Shown here: piece after piece, positions 11,002-28,556 of the stretch
Layout: each line of letters starts with the position of its first letter
How positions within the stretch are numbered: the first letter of the stretch is position 1
From: a virus
IMG/VR virus record: IMGVR_UViG_3300032132_000035
Span: 1-28,556 of that record
DNA: 28,556 bases
Reading direction: 5' to 3' (one strand)
Translations under genes and position numbers: made by a program
Notes under the pieces: generated by a model
What the model saw: only the letters and a program-made list of their open reading frames with translations
Database searches by the model: none
What the model was told of the DNA's origin: nothing

Positions 11002-11225
11002 TTTTTTCTTTTCTTTCCTATGGTTGGAAAATCGTCGTAATAGTTAAAATTCTTATTTTCTCCGCCAGAGATAGGACGTTGCCAGACAACCAAACATTGA
11101 TTACAAACAAACATCAATCCATCAACATTGACGTTTCGAGTTGGGGAAGTTTTGTTTGAATAAACTTTTGGCAATCCGGTTGTATTTGTATCGTAACCAG
11201 ATATGATTGCTTCAAGAATATTCAC
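10974..11225 (-). CDS. small zinc-ribbon protein
   Basis: A GTG start at 11225 overlaps the replication-gene stop as GTGA. The 83 residues carry two Cys pairs, CNQC mid-protein and CPKC near the C-terminus, the spacing of a zinc ribbon with a long insert, and end in a run of lysines (CKKKK). The body between the pairs is aromatic (NFNYYDDFP). A nucleic-acid-binding accessory of replication is plausible; no specific family is recognised. Confidence 0.76.
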   Translation of the reverse strand: MNILEAIISGYDTNTTGLPKVYSNKTSPTRNVNVDGLMFVCNQCLVVWQRPISGGENKNFNYYDDFPTIGKKRKKCPKCKKKK

Positions 11226-11998
11226 GCCATTGCCCTTTTAAGTTGTATTTCTTCATTTGGAAGTAGTTGTTCGTGACATTTAGGGCAAACACCGCGCACA
11301 CCTTTTGATACTTTTCTTGAATAATGTCCATCCGGACAGGCAATTAAAATATCGTTGGATTTTATTTGGTCGGATTTAGATGAACCTGGTCGATCCTTGT
11401 ACCACTCGGACCGGCAACAATTATTGAAAGCGGATTCATACTTTTTATATTTCTTTCCGGTAGCATCCAACCAATCCACAAAGGAATCGTAATAGAATTG
11501 AATATTTAATGTGGGATATTTTTTAGAATAGTCTGATAGATTTGATTTGATTAACTCTAATTGGTCCGAACGGGTATGTTTCTTTTCATTCTTAACATTC
11601 TTTAATTCTTTAGGTGTTGCGTTAGACTTGCGTTCAGTTTGCGTTACATTTGCGTTAGATTTGCGTTCAGTTTGTGTTGAATCTTGGTAAGTGTCGTAAT
11701 TACAGATAGTTAGGTGTGTGAAACCTTGTGCCGTTTTTCGTACAATCATGGAATCTTTTTCAAGCAACTTTAAAAAGTGCCTTGTTTTATGAATTGTCAT
11801 TTTCCAACGGTTTGACAACATATTTAGGCTGCTTACAATTTCTCCCCGTTTAATTGTCACAAGCGATTCGTTGTATATTCTGGTTTTGTTTTCATGGTTG
11901 GCTTCCATTAACAAATCGGACCAAGCACGATAATAGTTTTCATTTTGCCATATCCAATGGTGTCGAATGTCTCGATGCAGTTTGATCCACCCGGTCAA
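11222..11998 (-). CDS. replication initiator-like winged-helix protein
   Basis: The 258-residue protein begins WIKLHRDIRHHWIWQNENYY and continues with LLMEANHENK and IKRGEIVSSLNMLSNRWKMT, the pattern of the N-terminal winged-helix domain of phage replisome-organiser/DnaD-type proteins (W-hydrophobic-K-hydrophobic-hydrophobic, then a helix with the recognition segment RWKMTIHKTRHFLKLLEKDS). A short repeated linker (TQTERKSNA occurs twice) separates a DnaD-like helical middle (YKKYESAFNNCCRSEWYKDR). A zinc knuckle follows at the C-terminus (CPDGHYS, CPKCHEQL). It probably binds the phage origin and loads host helicase. Confidence 0.82.
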   Translation of the reverse strand: MTGWIKLHRDIRHHWIWQNENYYRAWSDLLMEANHENKTRIYNESLVTIKRGEIVSSLNMLSNRWKMTIHKTRHFLKLLEKDSMIVRKTAQGFTHLTICNYDTYQDSTQTERKSNANVTQTERKSNATPKELKNVKNEKKHTRSDQLELIKSNLSDYSKKYPTLNIQFYYDSFVDWLDATGKKYKKYESAFNNCCRSEWYKDRPGSSKSDQIKSNDILIACPDGHYSRKVSKGVRGVCPKCHEQLLPNEEIQLKRAMA

Positions 11999-12138
11999 AC
12001 AATATATCCTTTAGCTAACAATCTGATAAATTGGAACAACATGAACCAACCAAACAGTTTCACAAAATTAATTATGAATCGGTCAAACGACTTTTCAAAC
12101 GACTTGTCCCGTGAGCGGGTGTATCTGTGAGTCCTCAC
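11995..12138 (-). CDS. small membrane-anchored basic peptide (GTG start)
   Basis: The frame is open further upstream to 12249, but the best start is GTG 12138, behind AAAAGGAGAAGCCAA with 7-base spacing. This gives 47 residues: a basic N-terminus (RTHRYTRSRDKSFEKSFDRF) and one hydrophobic helix (FVKLFGWFMLFQFIRLLAKG). The N-terminus has a short repeat (DKSFEKSFD) from a near-tandem TCAAACGACTT. It ends in an ATGA overlap with the replication gene. Confidence 0.7.
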   Translation of the reverse strand: MRTHRYTRSRDKSFEKSFDRFIINFVKLFGWFMLFQFIRLLAKGYIV

Positions 12139-12307
12139 TTGGCTTCTCCTTTTGTTTAATTTCTTGAACGTCCCAATTCTTTGCTTCATATCGGCGAATT
12201 GTTTTGGTGAAATGACCATCTTGATATTCAACTTGGTCTTCTGGGACAATTATTGACATCGGTTCACCTTTAAACGGTGGGTAGAAATAAAAAATTCTAT
12301 ACTTCAT
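12095..12307 (-). CDS. hypothetical small protein
   Basis: The 70-residue protein MKYRIFYFYPPFKGEPMSII... has a beta-rich aromatic N-terminus (RIFYFYPPF), then a charged middle (EDQVEYQDGHFTKTIRRYEA) and a polar tail (IHPLTGQVV). I recognise no family. It overlaps the start of the GTG-initiated membrane gene by 44 bases, and its 3' part carries that gene's AAGGAG site, so expression of the two is coupled. Composition is consistent with a true gene over its whole length. Confidence 0.7.
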   Translation of the reverse strand: MKYRIFYFYPPFKGEPMSIIVPEDQVEYQDGHFTKTIRRYEAKNWDVQEIKQKEKPSEDSQIHPLTGQVV

Positions 12308-12339: not shown

Positions 12340-12465
12340 CTATCTCAAACTTTCTCGAAGTTTTTCAAAACTTTTATTTAGTGCTTTGGTTAAGCCTTCC
12401 ATATTTTCTAATGTTGTTGTCATTTTGGATTGATTTTCTTGGAGTCTTTTTGTTTTTTGTTCCAT
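12340..12465 (-). CDS. short coiled-coil peptide (start uncertain)
   Basis: From ATG 12465, 41 residues (MEQKTKRLQENQSKMTTTLE...) form a regular amphipathic helix ending LRESLR. The frame is open upstream to 12621 but that part overlaps a better gene and is Ser/Thr-rich shadow. No strong ribosome site is seen at 12465 or at the next ATG. The heptad character supports it, but at this length it may be chance. Confidence 0.45.
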   Translation of the reverse strand: MEQKTKRLQENQSKMTTTLENMEGLTKALNKSFEKLRESLR

Positions 12466-12641
12466 ATCTTTCGCAATTCGTGTAATAGTCGGCGAAGTTG
12501 TGCTACCGATAAATGATTCAGTTTCGGACGATCCCCGAAAAGTCTCCACTTGATCTGAAGTGTCTTTTGCCAACCCATCAGACTTTGTGCCTTTGCGAAG
12601 TTTTGAATTAGGTCGTACCATTCTTTATTTCTCCAATCCAT
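12420..12641 (-). CDS. small helical protein
   Basis: ATG 12641, overlapping the end of the preceding gene by 17 bases, gives 73 residues (MDWRNKEWYDLIQNFAKAQS...). The body is strongly helical and basic (WRLFGDRPKLNHLSVAQLRR, LLHELRKIWNKKQKD), with an interior VAQLRRLLHEL segment of the type seen in small phage DNA-associated proteins such as the GemA family. I cannot confirm that link. Composition here is far more protein-like than the alternative frame. Confidence 0.65.
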   Translation of the reverse strand: MDWRNKEWYDLIQNFAKAQSLMGWQKTLQIKWRLFGDRPKLNHLSVAQLRRLLHELRKIWNKKQKDSKKINPK

Positions 12642-13168: not shown

Positions 13169-13420
13169 TTATTCCTCTTTGTTTAGTCGTTTAAGTTCAA
13201 CGGTGGAACGTACTATATCCGTAACCGATACCACCTTTTTGAAATCGCCATTCTTATATGGCGGATAACATTTGTGCGCGTGATTTATTGTCCATCCATC
13301 ACCCGCTTTAATAATTTCATCAACTAATTCATCAATCGAAAATTCTATCACGTTTTTGCCCTTAACATCGCCCTCGTAAGTATCGTGTTCGATGATGGCT
13401 CTATATGTAACTTTAGCCAA
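13169..13420 (-). CDS. hypothetical small protein (TTG start)
   Basis: TTG 13420 behind AGGTGAAGTAA opens 83 residues (MAKVTYRAIIEHDTYEGDVK...). Beta strands at the N-terminus (KVTYRAIIEH, NVIEFSIDELV) precede a short aromatic/Cys segment (INHAHKCYPPYKNG) and a C-terminal strand-helix (VVSVTDIVRSTVELKRLNKEE). The stop codon is part of the AAAGAGGAATAA element that serves as ribosome site for the next gene. No family recognised. Confidence 0.7.
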   Translation of the reverse strand: MAKVTYRAIIEHDTYEGDVKGKNVIEFSIDELVDEIIKAGDGWTINHAHKCYPPYKNGDFKKVVSVTDIVRSTVELKRLNKEE

Positions 13421-13665: not shown

Positions 13666-13938
13666 CTACCCATTTTTTAAAATTCTTGATTCATTATTTC
13701 TGTCTATATTGAAGGCATCTGTTTTGGCAAGTATTTTGTAAATCTTTTTTGCCATTTTAACACACTCGCCACTACCACTTATTTTGTATTTTCTGTGACC
13801 AATACTTTCAATCTTTTTTCTCGTTTCGTATTTACCTTTCGCCTGTTCTTCCCACTTGTGACAATCCGCAACAATAAAAAGACCGACATCTTTTAAAATG
13901 GTAAGTATTTCCAATTCTATTTGATTCATTTTATCCAT
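13666..13938 (-). CDS. hypothetical small protein
   Basis: The 90-residue product MDKMNQIELEILTILKDVGL... is soluble, helical, basic and has two isolated Cys (ADCHKW, GECVKM). The start overlaps the upstream stop as TAATG. I recognise no family; a small DNA- or host-protein-binding factor is possible. Confidence 0.7.
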   Translation of the reverse strand: MDKMNQIELEILTILKDVGLFIVADCHKWEEQAKGKYETRKKIESIGHRKYKISGSGECVKMAKKIYKILAKTDAFNIDRNNESRILKNG

Positions 13939-14573
13939 TATTTACACCAATAGCGATTGTAAATATTGTTAAATTGAAGCGCATTTTCATTTCGATTGAT
14001 GTCAATTCCAACTCCGCAGATTCTTAACTCAAACCACGATACATTTATACTTTTATTTCTCCCTAAATCAAGGTCAATCACGACGTAATCCATGAAATAT
14101 AGAGCAAATCTAAATTTTTGAATTGTTGCACCTTTTTTAAATAGTGTGTTTTTAAATATCTTTTTCATTTTATTATTCCTCTTTAATGAAACCGCCTTGA
14201 CCGAAGATTCGGCAATAGGCGAGGAATTTGCCTCAAGACGGTTATATTTTGTTATTCCTCTTTGCATTTGGTTATTTACTTCTGCTTTGGCAATCGCCTT
14301 TTCACATACTTTTGTAAGATGCTTATTATACTCATATTCTGAAAGACTTATCCATTTGTGTACTTCCTTCAACGCTTCAAGCATATCCGGTGCAGATGCG
14401 ATTAGATTTGAATTGGCTCTTGTTTCTGATTTATCAAAAGCACCATCTTCCCAAACCTTTTTATCTTCATTCCTTTTATCTTGACTATGAATTCCCGCAA
14501 TAAACACATCGCCACTTTTGATATGAATACCGATTGTTTCAGTTACTTCCCATTTACCTGATGTATGTTTCAT
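13938..14573 (-). CDS. first early gene: probable fusion of two small proteins across a leader-like segment
   Basis: ATG 14573, behind AAAGAGGAATAACAAA, opens 211 residues. Residues 1 to about 100 (MKHTSGKWEVTETIGIHIKS, then NSNLIASAPDMLEALKEV and KAIAKAE) look like a widespread small phage protein family with ANARLIAAAPDLLEAL-type sequence, which normally stops shortly after AIAKAE. Here the frame continues through leader-like sequence (a stem at 14190-14243 and two more copies of the ribosome-site element) into a second domain beginning MKKIFKNTLFKKGATIQKFR at ATG 14168. That ATG has its own AAAGAGGAATAATAAA. The second part is beta-rich (YVVIDLDLGRNKSINVSWFE). Either one fused protein, or two products with the second from the internal start. 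An extension to 14690 is rejected because it would run through the structured leader. Confidence 0.7.
   Translation of the reverse strand: MKHTSGKWEVTETIGIHIKSGDVFIAGIHSQDKRNEDKKVWEDGAFDKSETRANSNLIASAPDMLEALKEVHKWISLSEYEYNKHLTKVCEKAIAKAEVNNQMQRGITKYNRLEANSSPIAESSVKAVSLKRNNKMKKIFKNTLFKKGATIQKFRFALYFMDYVVIDLDLGRNKSINVSWFELRICGVGIDINRNENALQFNNIYNRYWCK
14168..14183 (-). promoter_or_regulatory. internal ribosome site and start for the second early product
   Basis: AAAGAGGAATAATAAA lies directly before ATG 14168, nearly identical to the site before ATG 14573. A third copy without a usable start lies at about 14247-14264 and a fourth before ATG 13167. Translation from 14168 would yield a 76-residue protein in frame with the upstream gene. 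Confidence 0.55.
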
Positions 14574-14597
14574 TTTGTTATTCCTCTTTAAAATGAT

Positions 14598-14689
14598 ACC
14601 GGGACAAGAATCGGTGCTTAAATCGATCACAGGCTTTTGCCCGTTGTGAGAATGTCCCGGTGAAATGTTTGATTGTATCGACTTAAGCA
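14598..14689 (-). promoter_or_regulatory. 5' leader with interleaved inverted repeats (pseudoknot or switch)
   Basis: Two inverted repeats alternate in the leader of the first early gene. GCTTAAGTCGAT (minus strand, 14688-14677) pairs with ATCGATTTAAGC (14627-14616) over 12 bp, with one G.U and one extra flanking pair. ACCGGGACA (14661-14653) pairs perfectly with TGTCCCGGT (14606-14598) over 9 bp. The order is A, B, A', B', so both can form only as a pseudoknot, or alternate as a switch. The single mismatch is a wobble only in minus-strand RNA, which favours an RNA element. It ends 9 bases before the AAAGAGGAATAAC ribosome site. Confidence 0.72.
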
Positions 14690-14760
14690 TACAAGAATAT
14701 AAACAAAAAAAGTTATAGTATGGTGATTTTTTTTATTTCCCATATTAATCCAATCTGTAC
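14690..14760 (-). promoter_or_regulatory. candidate early promoter region
   Basis: Upstream of the structured leader the minus strand has a T-rich tract with TATATT (within TTTGTTTATATTCTTG) and TATAAC. Either could serve as a -10 element placing transcription start close to the first base of the leader structure (about 14690). No convincing -35 hexamer is seen. The call rests mostly on position: it lies between the terminator of the preceding unit and the first gene of the next. Confidence 0.4.
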
Positions 14761-14786
14761 GAAGGCACACACATACCCAATATAAA

Positions 14787-14823
14787 CAAAAAACCCCCGT
14801 ATTCGGCGAATATGAGGGTTTTA
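14787..14823 (-). terminator. rho-independent terminator at the end of the right-arm operon
   Basis: On the minus strand, 22 bases after the last gene stop, CCCTC-a-TATTC pairs with GAATA-c-GGGGG around a GCC loop, followed at once by TTTTTTG. AAAA before the stem can extend it with the U-tract. This is the only standard terminator I find in the window, and it divides the end of the circular transcription unit from its beginning. Confidence 0.85.
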
Positions 14824-14844
14824 GAGGTATTCTGGCGTGGTAGG

Positions 14845-28244: not shown

Positions 28245-28556
28245 TAGCCGACGTATGCGAGACACGCACCCGAAGCTAATGTAAATCCTGTCCACCTACC
28301 GTAGATGGTCATTCCCTGGGGAAATGTTTCGCCATCTATTGCAGCACCGCCATCCGCATCGATTAGTGTTCCCGCGCCTGTATCGTCTGGAAAGAGTTGT
28401 TCCGTTTCCGCGATTAGTCCCCCGCTACCGGAAGCGAATACTGTATCTTCGGTGAATTGGATTGCGACAAAGACACCCGATCCCGCGCCACAAGTGACGG
28501 CAGTCGTACCCGTCACAAATATTGAACCGGCTTGTCCCATTGCTAAATTTTGTGCT
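28244..28556 (-). CDS. decoration-like virion structural protein, C-terminal part (same gene as 1-156)
   Basis: This is the remainder of the gene at 1-156 on the circular genome; bases 28430-28556 duplicate 1-127. On the linear window it appears 5'-truncated, and an in-frame ATG at 28540 is not the true start. Stop TAA is at 28244-28246, overlapping the next start. The C-terminal sequence (GETFPQGMTIYGRWTGFTLA, then GACLAYVG) is the most conserved-looking part of the product. Confidence 0.8.
   Translation of the reverse strand, partial: AQNLAMGQAGSIFVTGTTAVTCGAGSGVFVAIQFTEDTVFASGSGGLIAETEQLFPDDTGAGTLIDADGGAAIDGETFPQGMTIYGRWTGFTLASGACLAYVG
28430..28556. repeat. terminal direct repeat, right copy (circular overlap)
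   Basis: Identical over 127 bases to 1-127. Count it once when computing genome length or gene number. Confidence 0.93.

Follow-up and report, generated by a model that had tools for sequence, protein, structure and literature searches.

A covariation-supported three-helix pseudoknot, apparently undescribed so far, heading the main transcription unit in a group of uncultured phages

Just ahead of the first gene of a long one-way transcription unit in an uncultured phage, two inverted repeats are interleaved, and the question that this locus raises is whether they fold as RNA and what such an RNA might do for the transcript that it heads. The window, that is, the whole stretch of DNA analysed here, is the 28,556-base IMG/VR record IMGVR_UViG_3300032132_000035. 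It carries a 127-nt terminal direct repeat (1-127 = 28430-28556) and is therefore probably the complete genome of a phage, circular or circularly permuted. Nearly all of its plausible genes are held by the minus strand, and its main non-coding gap (14574-14844) separates the end of the late genes from the first gene of the next unit. Along the minus strand, this gap contains an intrinsic terminator, a promoter-like region, the knot, a Shine-Dalgarno (SD) box and the first start codon, in this order. The terminator, an inverted repeat at 14790-14822 on the minus strand (AAAACCCTCATATTCGCCGAATACGGGGGTTTTTT), ends the upstream (late) unit, and a homologue was found at the same place in the leader-bearing relatives, L535 included. 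An exact 15-nt repeat on the minus strand, TTTTTTGTTTATATT, is present both directly behind the terminator stem (14793-14779) and in the leader promoter, where it forms the -10-like region (14710-14696). Elsewhere in the window, tandem 11-nt units resembling TTGCGTTAGAC occupy 11617-11682, within the frame 11222-11998.

The original prediction described repeats alternating as A-B-A'-B' on the minus strand at 14689-14598, ahead of the SD box of gene 1, and they are present as claimed; with an inner hairpin included, the order is A-B-C-A'-B'. Helix A is formed by TGCTTAAGTCGAT (14677-14689) and its 3' strand A', ATCGATTTAAGCA (14615-14627), and comprises 13 bp including one G.U; as had been noticed, this sole non-Watson-Crick position is a G.U when the minus strand is read as RNA and would be an A.C on the opposite strand. 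Loop 1, which follows the 5' strand of helix A, is an A-rich stretch of 15 nt (ACAATCAAACATTTC, 14662-14676) whose unpaired columns are partly conserved. The 5' strand of helix B (ACCGGGACA, 14653-14661) pairs over 9 bp, Watson-Crick throughout, with B' (TGTCCCGGT, 14598-14606). Hairpin C (ACGGGC-AAAA-GCCTGT, 14629-14644) lies in the middle loop, where its GGGC-AAAA-GCC core had already been reported; the full stem has 6 bp. The loops of 15 and 8 nt look long enough to span the helices, and A and B could thus be formed together. An alternative helix D suggested by RNAalifold (66-70/81-85), which would compete with A, was rejected, its support being no better than that of shuffles.

Interleaved helix pairs are common as such: with G.U allowed, each strand of the window contains some 60 whose helices reach 9 bp or more. 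Ranked by the energy of the weaker helix, A/B is the top interleaved pair of the whole window, at -15.9 compared to -11.4 for the next pair on the minus strand and -11.8 on the other strand, and an equally good pair was obtained in 2 of 300 Markov-shuffled windows. When both strands of 503 kb of related phage genomes were scanned within strict energy and loop limits, 27 interleaved pairs were detected, 25 of them corresponding to the knot leader, to its complement or to an analogue in the genomes G006 and G007 that is described below. In a structural scan of 5.0 Mb of other contigs, the leader family tops the matches of moderate G+C content.

Twelve distinct homologues, the window included, were collected, all of them from IMG/VR contigs and with one sense copy of the leader per record. 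The first, L084, was reached via a neighbouring gene and has the same layout with an altered helix A (GGTTAATACGA/TCGTATTAACC); pattern scans of IMG/VR added L236, L155, L144, L232, L226, L163, L123, L131 and L150. L428 and L448 share their core with L236, and L455 is a truncated copy. The twelfth member, L535 (contig G017), was matched at 62.9 bits (E ~5e-13) by R1, a covariance model with the pairs of A and C and none of B; its contig had come in through a second structured element (element 2, below) and not through the leader patterns. No leader match was obtained by DNA similarity in 50,697 records of cultured phages, and patterns relaxed to admit B variants yielded no further members among the matches listed. 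Matches to leader-type patterns in bacterial genome contigs were also followed, and those examined among the matches listed were non-members. The Rfam search proposed with the original prediction returned no family either at gathering or at permissive thresholds, all matches in E-value mode being far below the gathering scores, and a limited search of the open-access literature found no paper on such a leader. The genome G001 and the corresponding place in G007 carry no such element at that point; therefore, the knot is not essential in the wider group, being absent there from some near relatives.

Pairing was then compared across the homologues. Over all 28 pairs of the 12 sequences, 97.9% of the cells are paired (97.4% in A, 100% in B and 95.7% in C), falling to 29-45% when the partners were slid as a control. 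Two-sided changes were found at 13 of the 28 pairs, distributed over all three helices (4/13 in A, 4/9 in B and 5/6 in C). The covariation score of 0.378 was reached by 0 of 500 shuffles (0.171 +/- 0.018), a control that ignores relatedness in a set of 12 sequences representing few clades. In the alignment of 11 sequences, 97.7% of the cells are paired, with eight two-sided pairs, and sliding by 1-3 columns again lowers pairing to 29-45%; here helix B is near-invariant. The 12-sequence alignment was fitted to A and C and not to B. Helix B was independently tested in L535, matched by a model without B pairs, in which its strands (ACGAGGGCA/TGCCCTCGT) show full pairing with three positions changed on both sides; covariation in B comes from one clade plus L535. 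The fold persists in related phages even where nearly all letters of the paired strands have been replaced, the opposite of the outcome named beforehand as a refutation, namely sequence kept with pairing lost. The wobble cells comprise 26 G.U and 0 A.C, and selection therefore acts on the strand of transcript sense. Both the proposed selection on the transcript and the proposed RNA-level pseudoknot in the early leader are thus borne out, by this asymmetry and by compensatory changes in A, B and C. On these sequence comparisons, the leader is an H-type three-stemmed pseudoknot whose interleaved helices are kept by covariation; it belongs to a known kind, the structured cis-acting phage leader, as a new RNA family of that kind, and is a real RNA control element, apparently undescribed so far.

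The place of the knot within the transcript was deduced from its surroundings. In the window, a -10-like hexamer (TATATT, 14696-14701, minus strand) lies 5 nt before A4 (14690), the putative +1, and in 12/12 members the invariant A follows, at a distance of 5-6 nt, a hexamer of this kind that agrees with TATAAT at 3-5 of 6 positions. The -35 region varies from a perfect TTGACA to nothing recognisable; a TTGACA promoter is present in L144 and L084 and none is recognisable in the window. At about -35, a block resembling AATCCCCACATATTACTTTTTT replaces TTGACA in the window, L150, L226, L232 and L535, and is possibly an activator site or a phage-specific promoter site. Because the position of the -10-like box is fixed, we infer that the transcript starts at about the first base of the invariant AUG adjoining helix A, near 14690 in the window. 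With a terminator just upstream and a -10-like box in all members, this agrees with the predicted place at the head of a one-way transcription unit, and it is possible that the knot controls the whole one-way transcription circle, as originally proposed.

Behind the knot, the SD box of gene 1 (AAAGAGG, 14589-14583) and its ATG (14573-14571) lie within AAAGAGGAATAACAAAATG (14571-14589, minus strand), and similar SD boxes follow most of the homologous leaders. Gene 1 (13938-14573, minus strand; PHROG 1273, function unknown) continues through element 2 into the next gene, and its 211-aa frame passes the point where homologues such as L155 stop, reflecting either a true fusion or an error of assembly. 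Different genes follow the leader within the family: they are MKHTSGKW-like, MKNHKYKKYY-like, MNEHEEKID-like or of other types, and G018 carries a different leader in front of a homologue of one such gene. L428 and L448 lack the first gene together with its SD box but have an unaltered leader core. The gene-1 product is therefore unlikely to exert control, and autoregulation by gene 1 was rejected on the same ground; since the following gene varies or is lost, the knot more likely serves the transcript than one gene product.

In these two contigs, the place of the first gene and SD box is taken by a perfect palindrome, TGTTTCACGTGAAACA, located directly behind B' (L448:4450-4465 and L428:852-867). 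We take this palindrome to be identical to the bacterial parS consensus; it is absent from the other loci of the 574 and from the window. Element 2 (14267-14173, minus strand), between gene 1 and gene 2, is a structured three-way junction with a loop, AUUCCUC, whose complement GAGGAAU is contained in the SD-like boxes on either side; judged from this complementarity, the loop could pair with an upstream decoy or with the real SD. Element 2 recurs before different genes in L155, L084, L226, L232, L535, L545 and, diverged, L150. The same gene is preceded by element 2 in L545 and lacks it in L123, so that the element looks mobile.

Two small proteins encoded further along the minus strand were followed across the records. 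A 93-aa protein (12340-12621) occurs in 10 of the 13 records that bear the leader and in 0 of 9 without a leader match, and is a candidate trans-acting partner. The product of 11995-12249, in which a basic stretch (NKRRSQVRTHRYTRSRDKS) is followed by a hydrophobic segment, is present in most leader-bearing records and in one of the nine without a leader match (G014).

A possible leaderless upstream ORF also runs through the leader (14574-14690, minus strand), with its AUG at the putative +1 and in frame with gene 1. Starting at this invariant AUG, some 38-40 codons can be read without a stop in 12/12 homologues and in the G006/G007 analogue, and the frame then closes on or close to the following start codon or enters the next gene in frame. 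A4-T5-G6 is invariant in 12/12, T5 being kept even where its helix A partner is not, and changes in length offset one another and bring the frame back into register, both in L535 (-2/+2) and between G006 and G007. The coding signal is weak, with a pN/pS of 0.72, no third-position bias (15, 16 and 19 variable columns), column-shuffle P values of 0.05 for similarity and 0.01 for lack of stops, and 22% peptide identity between the window and L535; a random leader of such composition is open in about 16-22% of cases. Protein coding as the sole cause was rejected, as it leaves the compensatory changes unexplained and the peptide diverges.

In the near relatives G006 and G007, where the leader models give no match, an analogous structure precedes a homologue of the window gene 13169-13420. 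It starts with TATATT-AGAAT-ATG and continues with GATTTTAGGAGG (A), TTGGCGGGG (B), a 7-bp hairpin, CCTCCTAAAATC (A') and CCCCGCCAA (B'), followed by an SD and ATG. The analogue agrees with the leader in helix order, in -10 spacing and in the SD behind, and the loop sizes from the scan are similar (13, 36 and 4, against 15, 25 and 8), whereas its sequence differs. Because no sequence is shared, a physical role is favoured over specific recognition. A speculative generalisation, doubtful at present, is a class of phage leaders conserved in architecture and free in sequence, in which the mRNA would start with an AUG on a three-helix pseudoknot and an always-open leaderless ORF would lead to the next start, the fate of the early transcript being decided by a race between the first ribosome and folding or by a pseudoknot-based antiterminator; G006/G007 would then be a second case, independently evolved or completely drifted.

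Our preferred explanation, held tentatively and at a little under an even chance, is that the leader is the 5'-terminal three-helix pseudoknot of an early polycistronic mRNA and acts in cis on the whole transcript, by protection of the 5' end and timing of translation. Transcription would begin at 14690 or within a few bases, and the RNA would fold into an H-type pseudoknot of helices A and B with the inner hairpin C, with its 5' end buried. The knot would hide the 5' end and the AUG and leave the next SD site single-stranded; the buried end might be shielded from end-dependent decay, as its position suggests, and the knot might set the moment at which ribosomes can use the 5' AUG. The action would be on the transcript as a whole and not on the first gene specifically. 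Within the main family, the sequences of helix B and loop 1 are conserved, and this could indicate a specific binding partner, which the protection-and-timing explanation does not need.

Among the alternatives, a put-like antitermination and a leaderless leader ORF are serious rivals. A processive antitermination of the put type, where RNA polymerase would become resistant to pausing and termination by binding the nascent leader and a single early promoter could thus serve a long unit, would fit the place of the knot, since HK022 putL is likewise a structured RNA from the first bases of an early transcript (PMC9378689); the independence from the following gene and the location of nearly all genes on one strand point the same way. 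Nevertheless, put consists of two stem-loops with a triplex and without a pseudoknot (PMC9378689), internal terminators in the unit are not beyond chance, and the specific contacts would be expected to keep some sequence, of which the G006/G007 analogue shares none, so we consider this mechanism somewhat unlikely. The analogue also lowers the probability of a protein operator and of a riboswitch, being unrelated in sequence. Reading by an early ribosome is also unlikely in our estimation: it would translate the peptide of about 38-40 codons, melt the knot and arrive at gene 1 through a stop near its start or an in-frame fusion, the knot otherwise hiding the AUG. The AUG invariant even without the T5 partner, the frame open in every homologue and both analogues, its restoration after length changes and its end at or within gene 1 argue for such a race, whereas the divergent peptide, the pN/pS without third-position bias and the appreciable frequency of open frames by chance argue against it.

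That a phage RNA-binding protein recognises the knot so as to repress or activate the early transcript is improbable, despite the precedent of a pseudoknot 5' of the SD in T4 gene 32 (PMC535899), whose product gp32 acts on its own message, the conserved sequence of B and loop 1, the tracking of leader presence by the 12340-12621 product and the basic nature of that of 11995-12249. The varying first gene makes control by its product unlikely, no known RNA-binding family was found among the proteins searched, which included some of the small ones, and nothing directly connects the candidate protein with the knot RNA. A metabolite bound by the three-stemmed pseudoknot is very improbable. The preQ1-II and fluoride riboswitches do contain such pseudoknots (PMC11262651) and the A-rich loop 1 is conserved, but the leader has no Rfam match, the following genes vary and none is known as metabolic, a fixed binding pocket is unlikely given the unrelated analogue, and helix D fails against shuffles, with no alternative fold sequestering the SD or forming a terminator found for the leader. 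The ligand-responsive leader of the original prediction is thus left unsupported, and so is its protein-binding alternative. We give as little credence to the repeats working at the DNA level, as sites for an operator or for recombination, without any role for RNA: they adjoin a promoter-like region, and single-stranded DNA of this sense would also tolerate a G.T wobble, but the compensatory changes leave no fixed DNA half-site, G.U outnumbers A.C by 26 to 0, and the repeats keep a fixed place, with the -10-like box on one side and the SD box on the other.

A covariation-supported structured RNA without an Rfam entry thus heads the main transcription unit in a group of uncultured phages, and its architecture recurs in near relatives with a sequence unrelated to it. 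If action on the whole transcript is true, the leader would represent a new way to protect or time phage early mRNA, or a pseudoknot-based antiterminator, in a knot of about 100 nt for whose folding no known phage protein is required. HDV-like ribozymes have the same strand order as the leader (P1-P2-P3 hairpin-P1'-P2'), and their helix matching A has about 7 bp; this assignment was rejected, as helix A with its 13 bp is too long and no Rfam HDV match was obtained.

Other three-stemmed pseudoknots, found in coronavirus frameshift signals and in preQ1-II and fluoride riboswitches (PMC11262651), have in common with the leader two interleaved helices plus an extra hairpin, whereas in the leader this hairpin lies between B and A', without an Rfam match or a metabolic gene behind. 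The stabilising stems at the 5' end of E. coli papA and other mRNAs, as far as the account that cites them describes them (PMC3997798), resemble the leader in a 5' end paired within a few nucleotides of +1, which in the leader is putative, but are simple hairpins rather than a pseudoknot. The closest phage pseudoknot is the T4 gene 32 operator, in which a folded component of about 28 nt is followed by several UUAAA/UAAA repeats and tied to the SSB gene (PMC535899). Both are pseudoknots of phage mRNA located 5' of the SD region; the leader differs in its length of about 92 nt, its three helices, its place at the inferred transcript start and a first gene that varies between homologues, so that it is not tied to a gene whose product binds it. 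Unlike in T4, at most one or two UUAAA/UAAA words were seen by eye between B' and the start codon. By position, although not by fold, the closest functional precedent is, by analogy, HK022 put, which lacks a pseudoknot and consists of two stem-loops, the first with an RNA triplex, starts pairing at nt 3 and, as putL, acts over at least 10 kb (PMC9378689). The leader differs from it in its pseudoknot topology; like put, it is a structured RNA that does not depend on the gene behind it and would begin in the first few bases of an early phage transcript.
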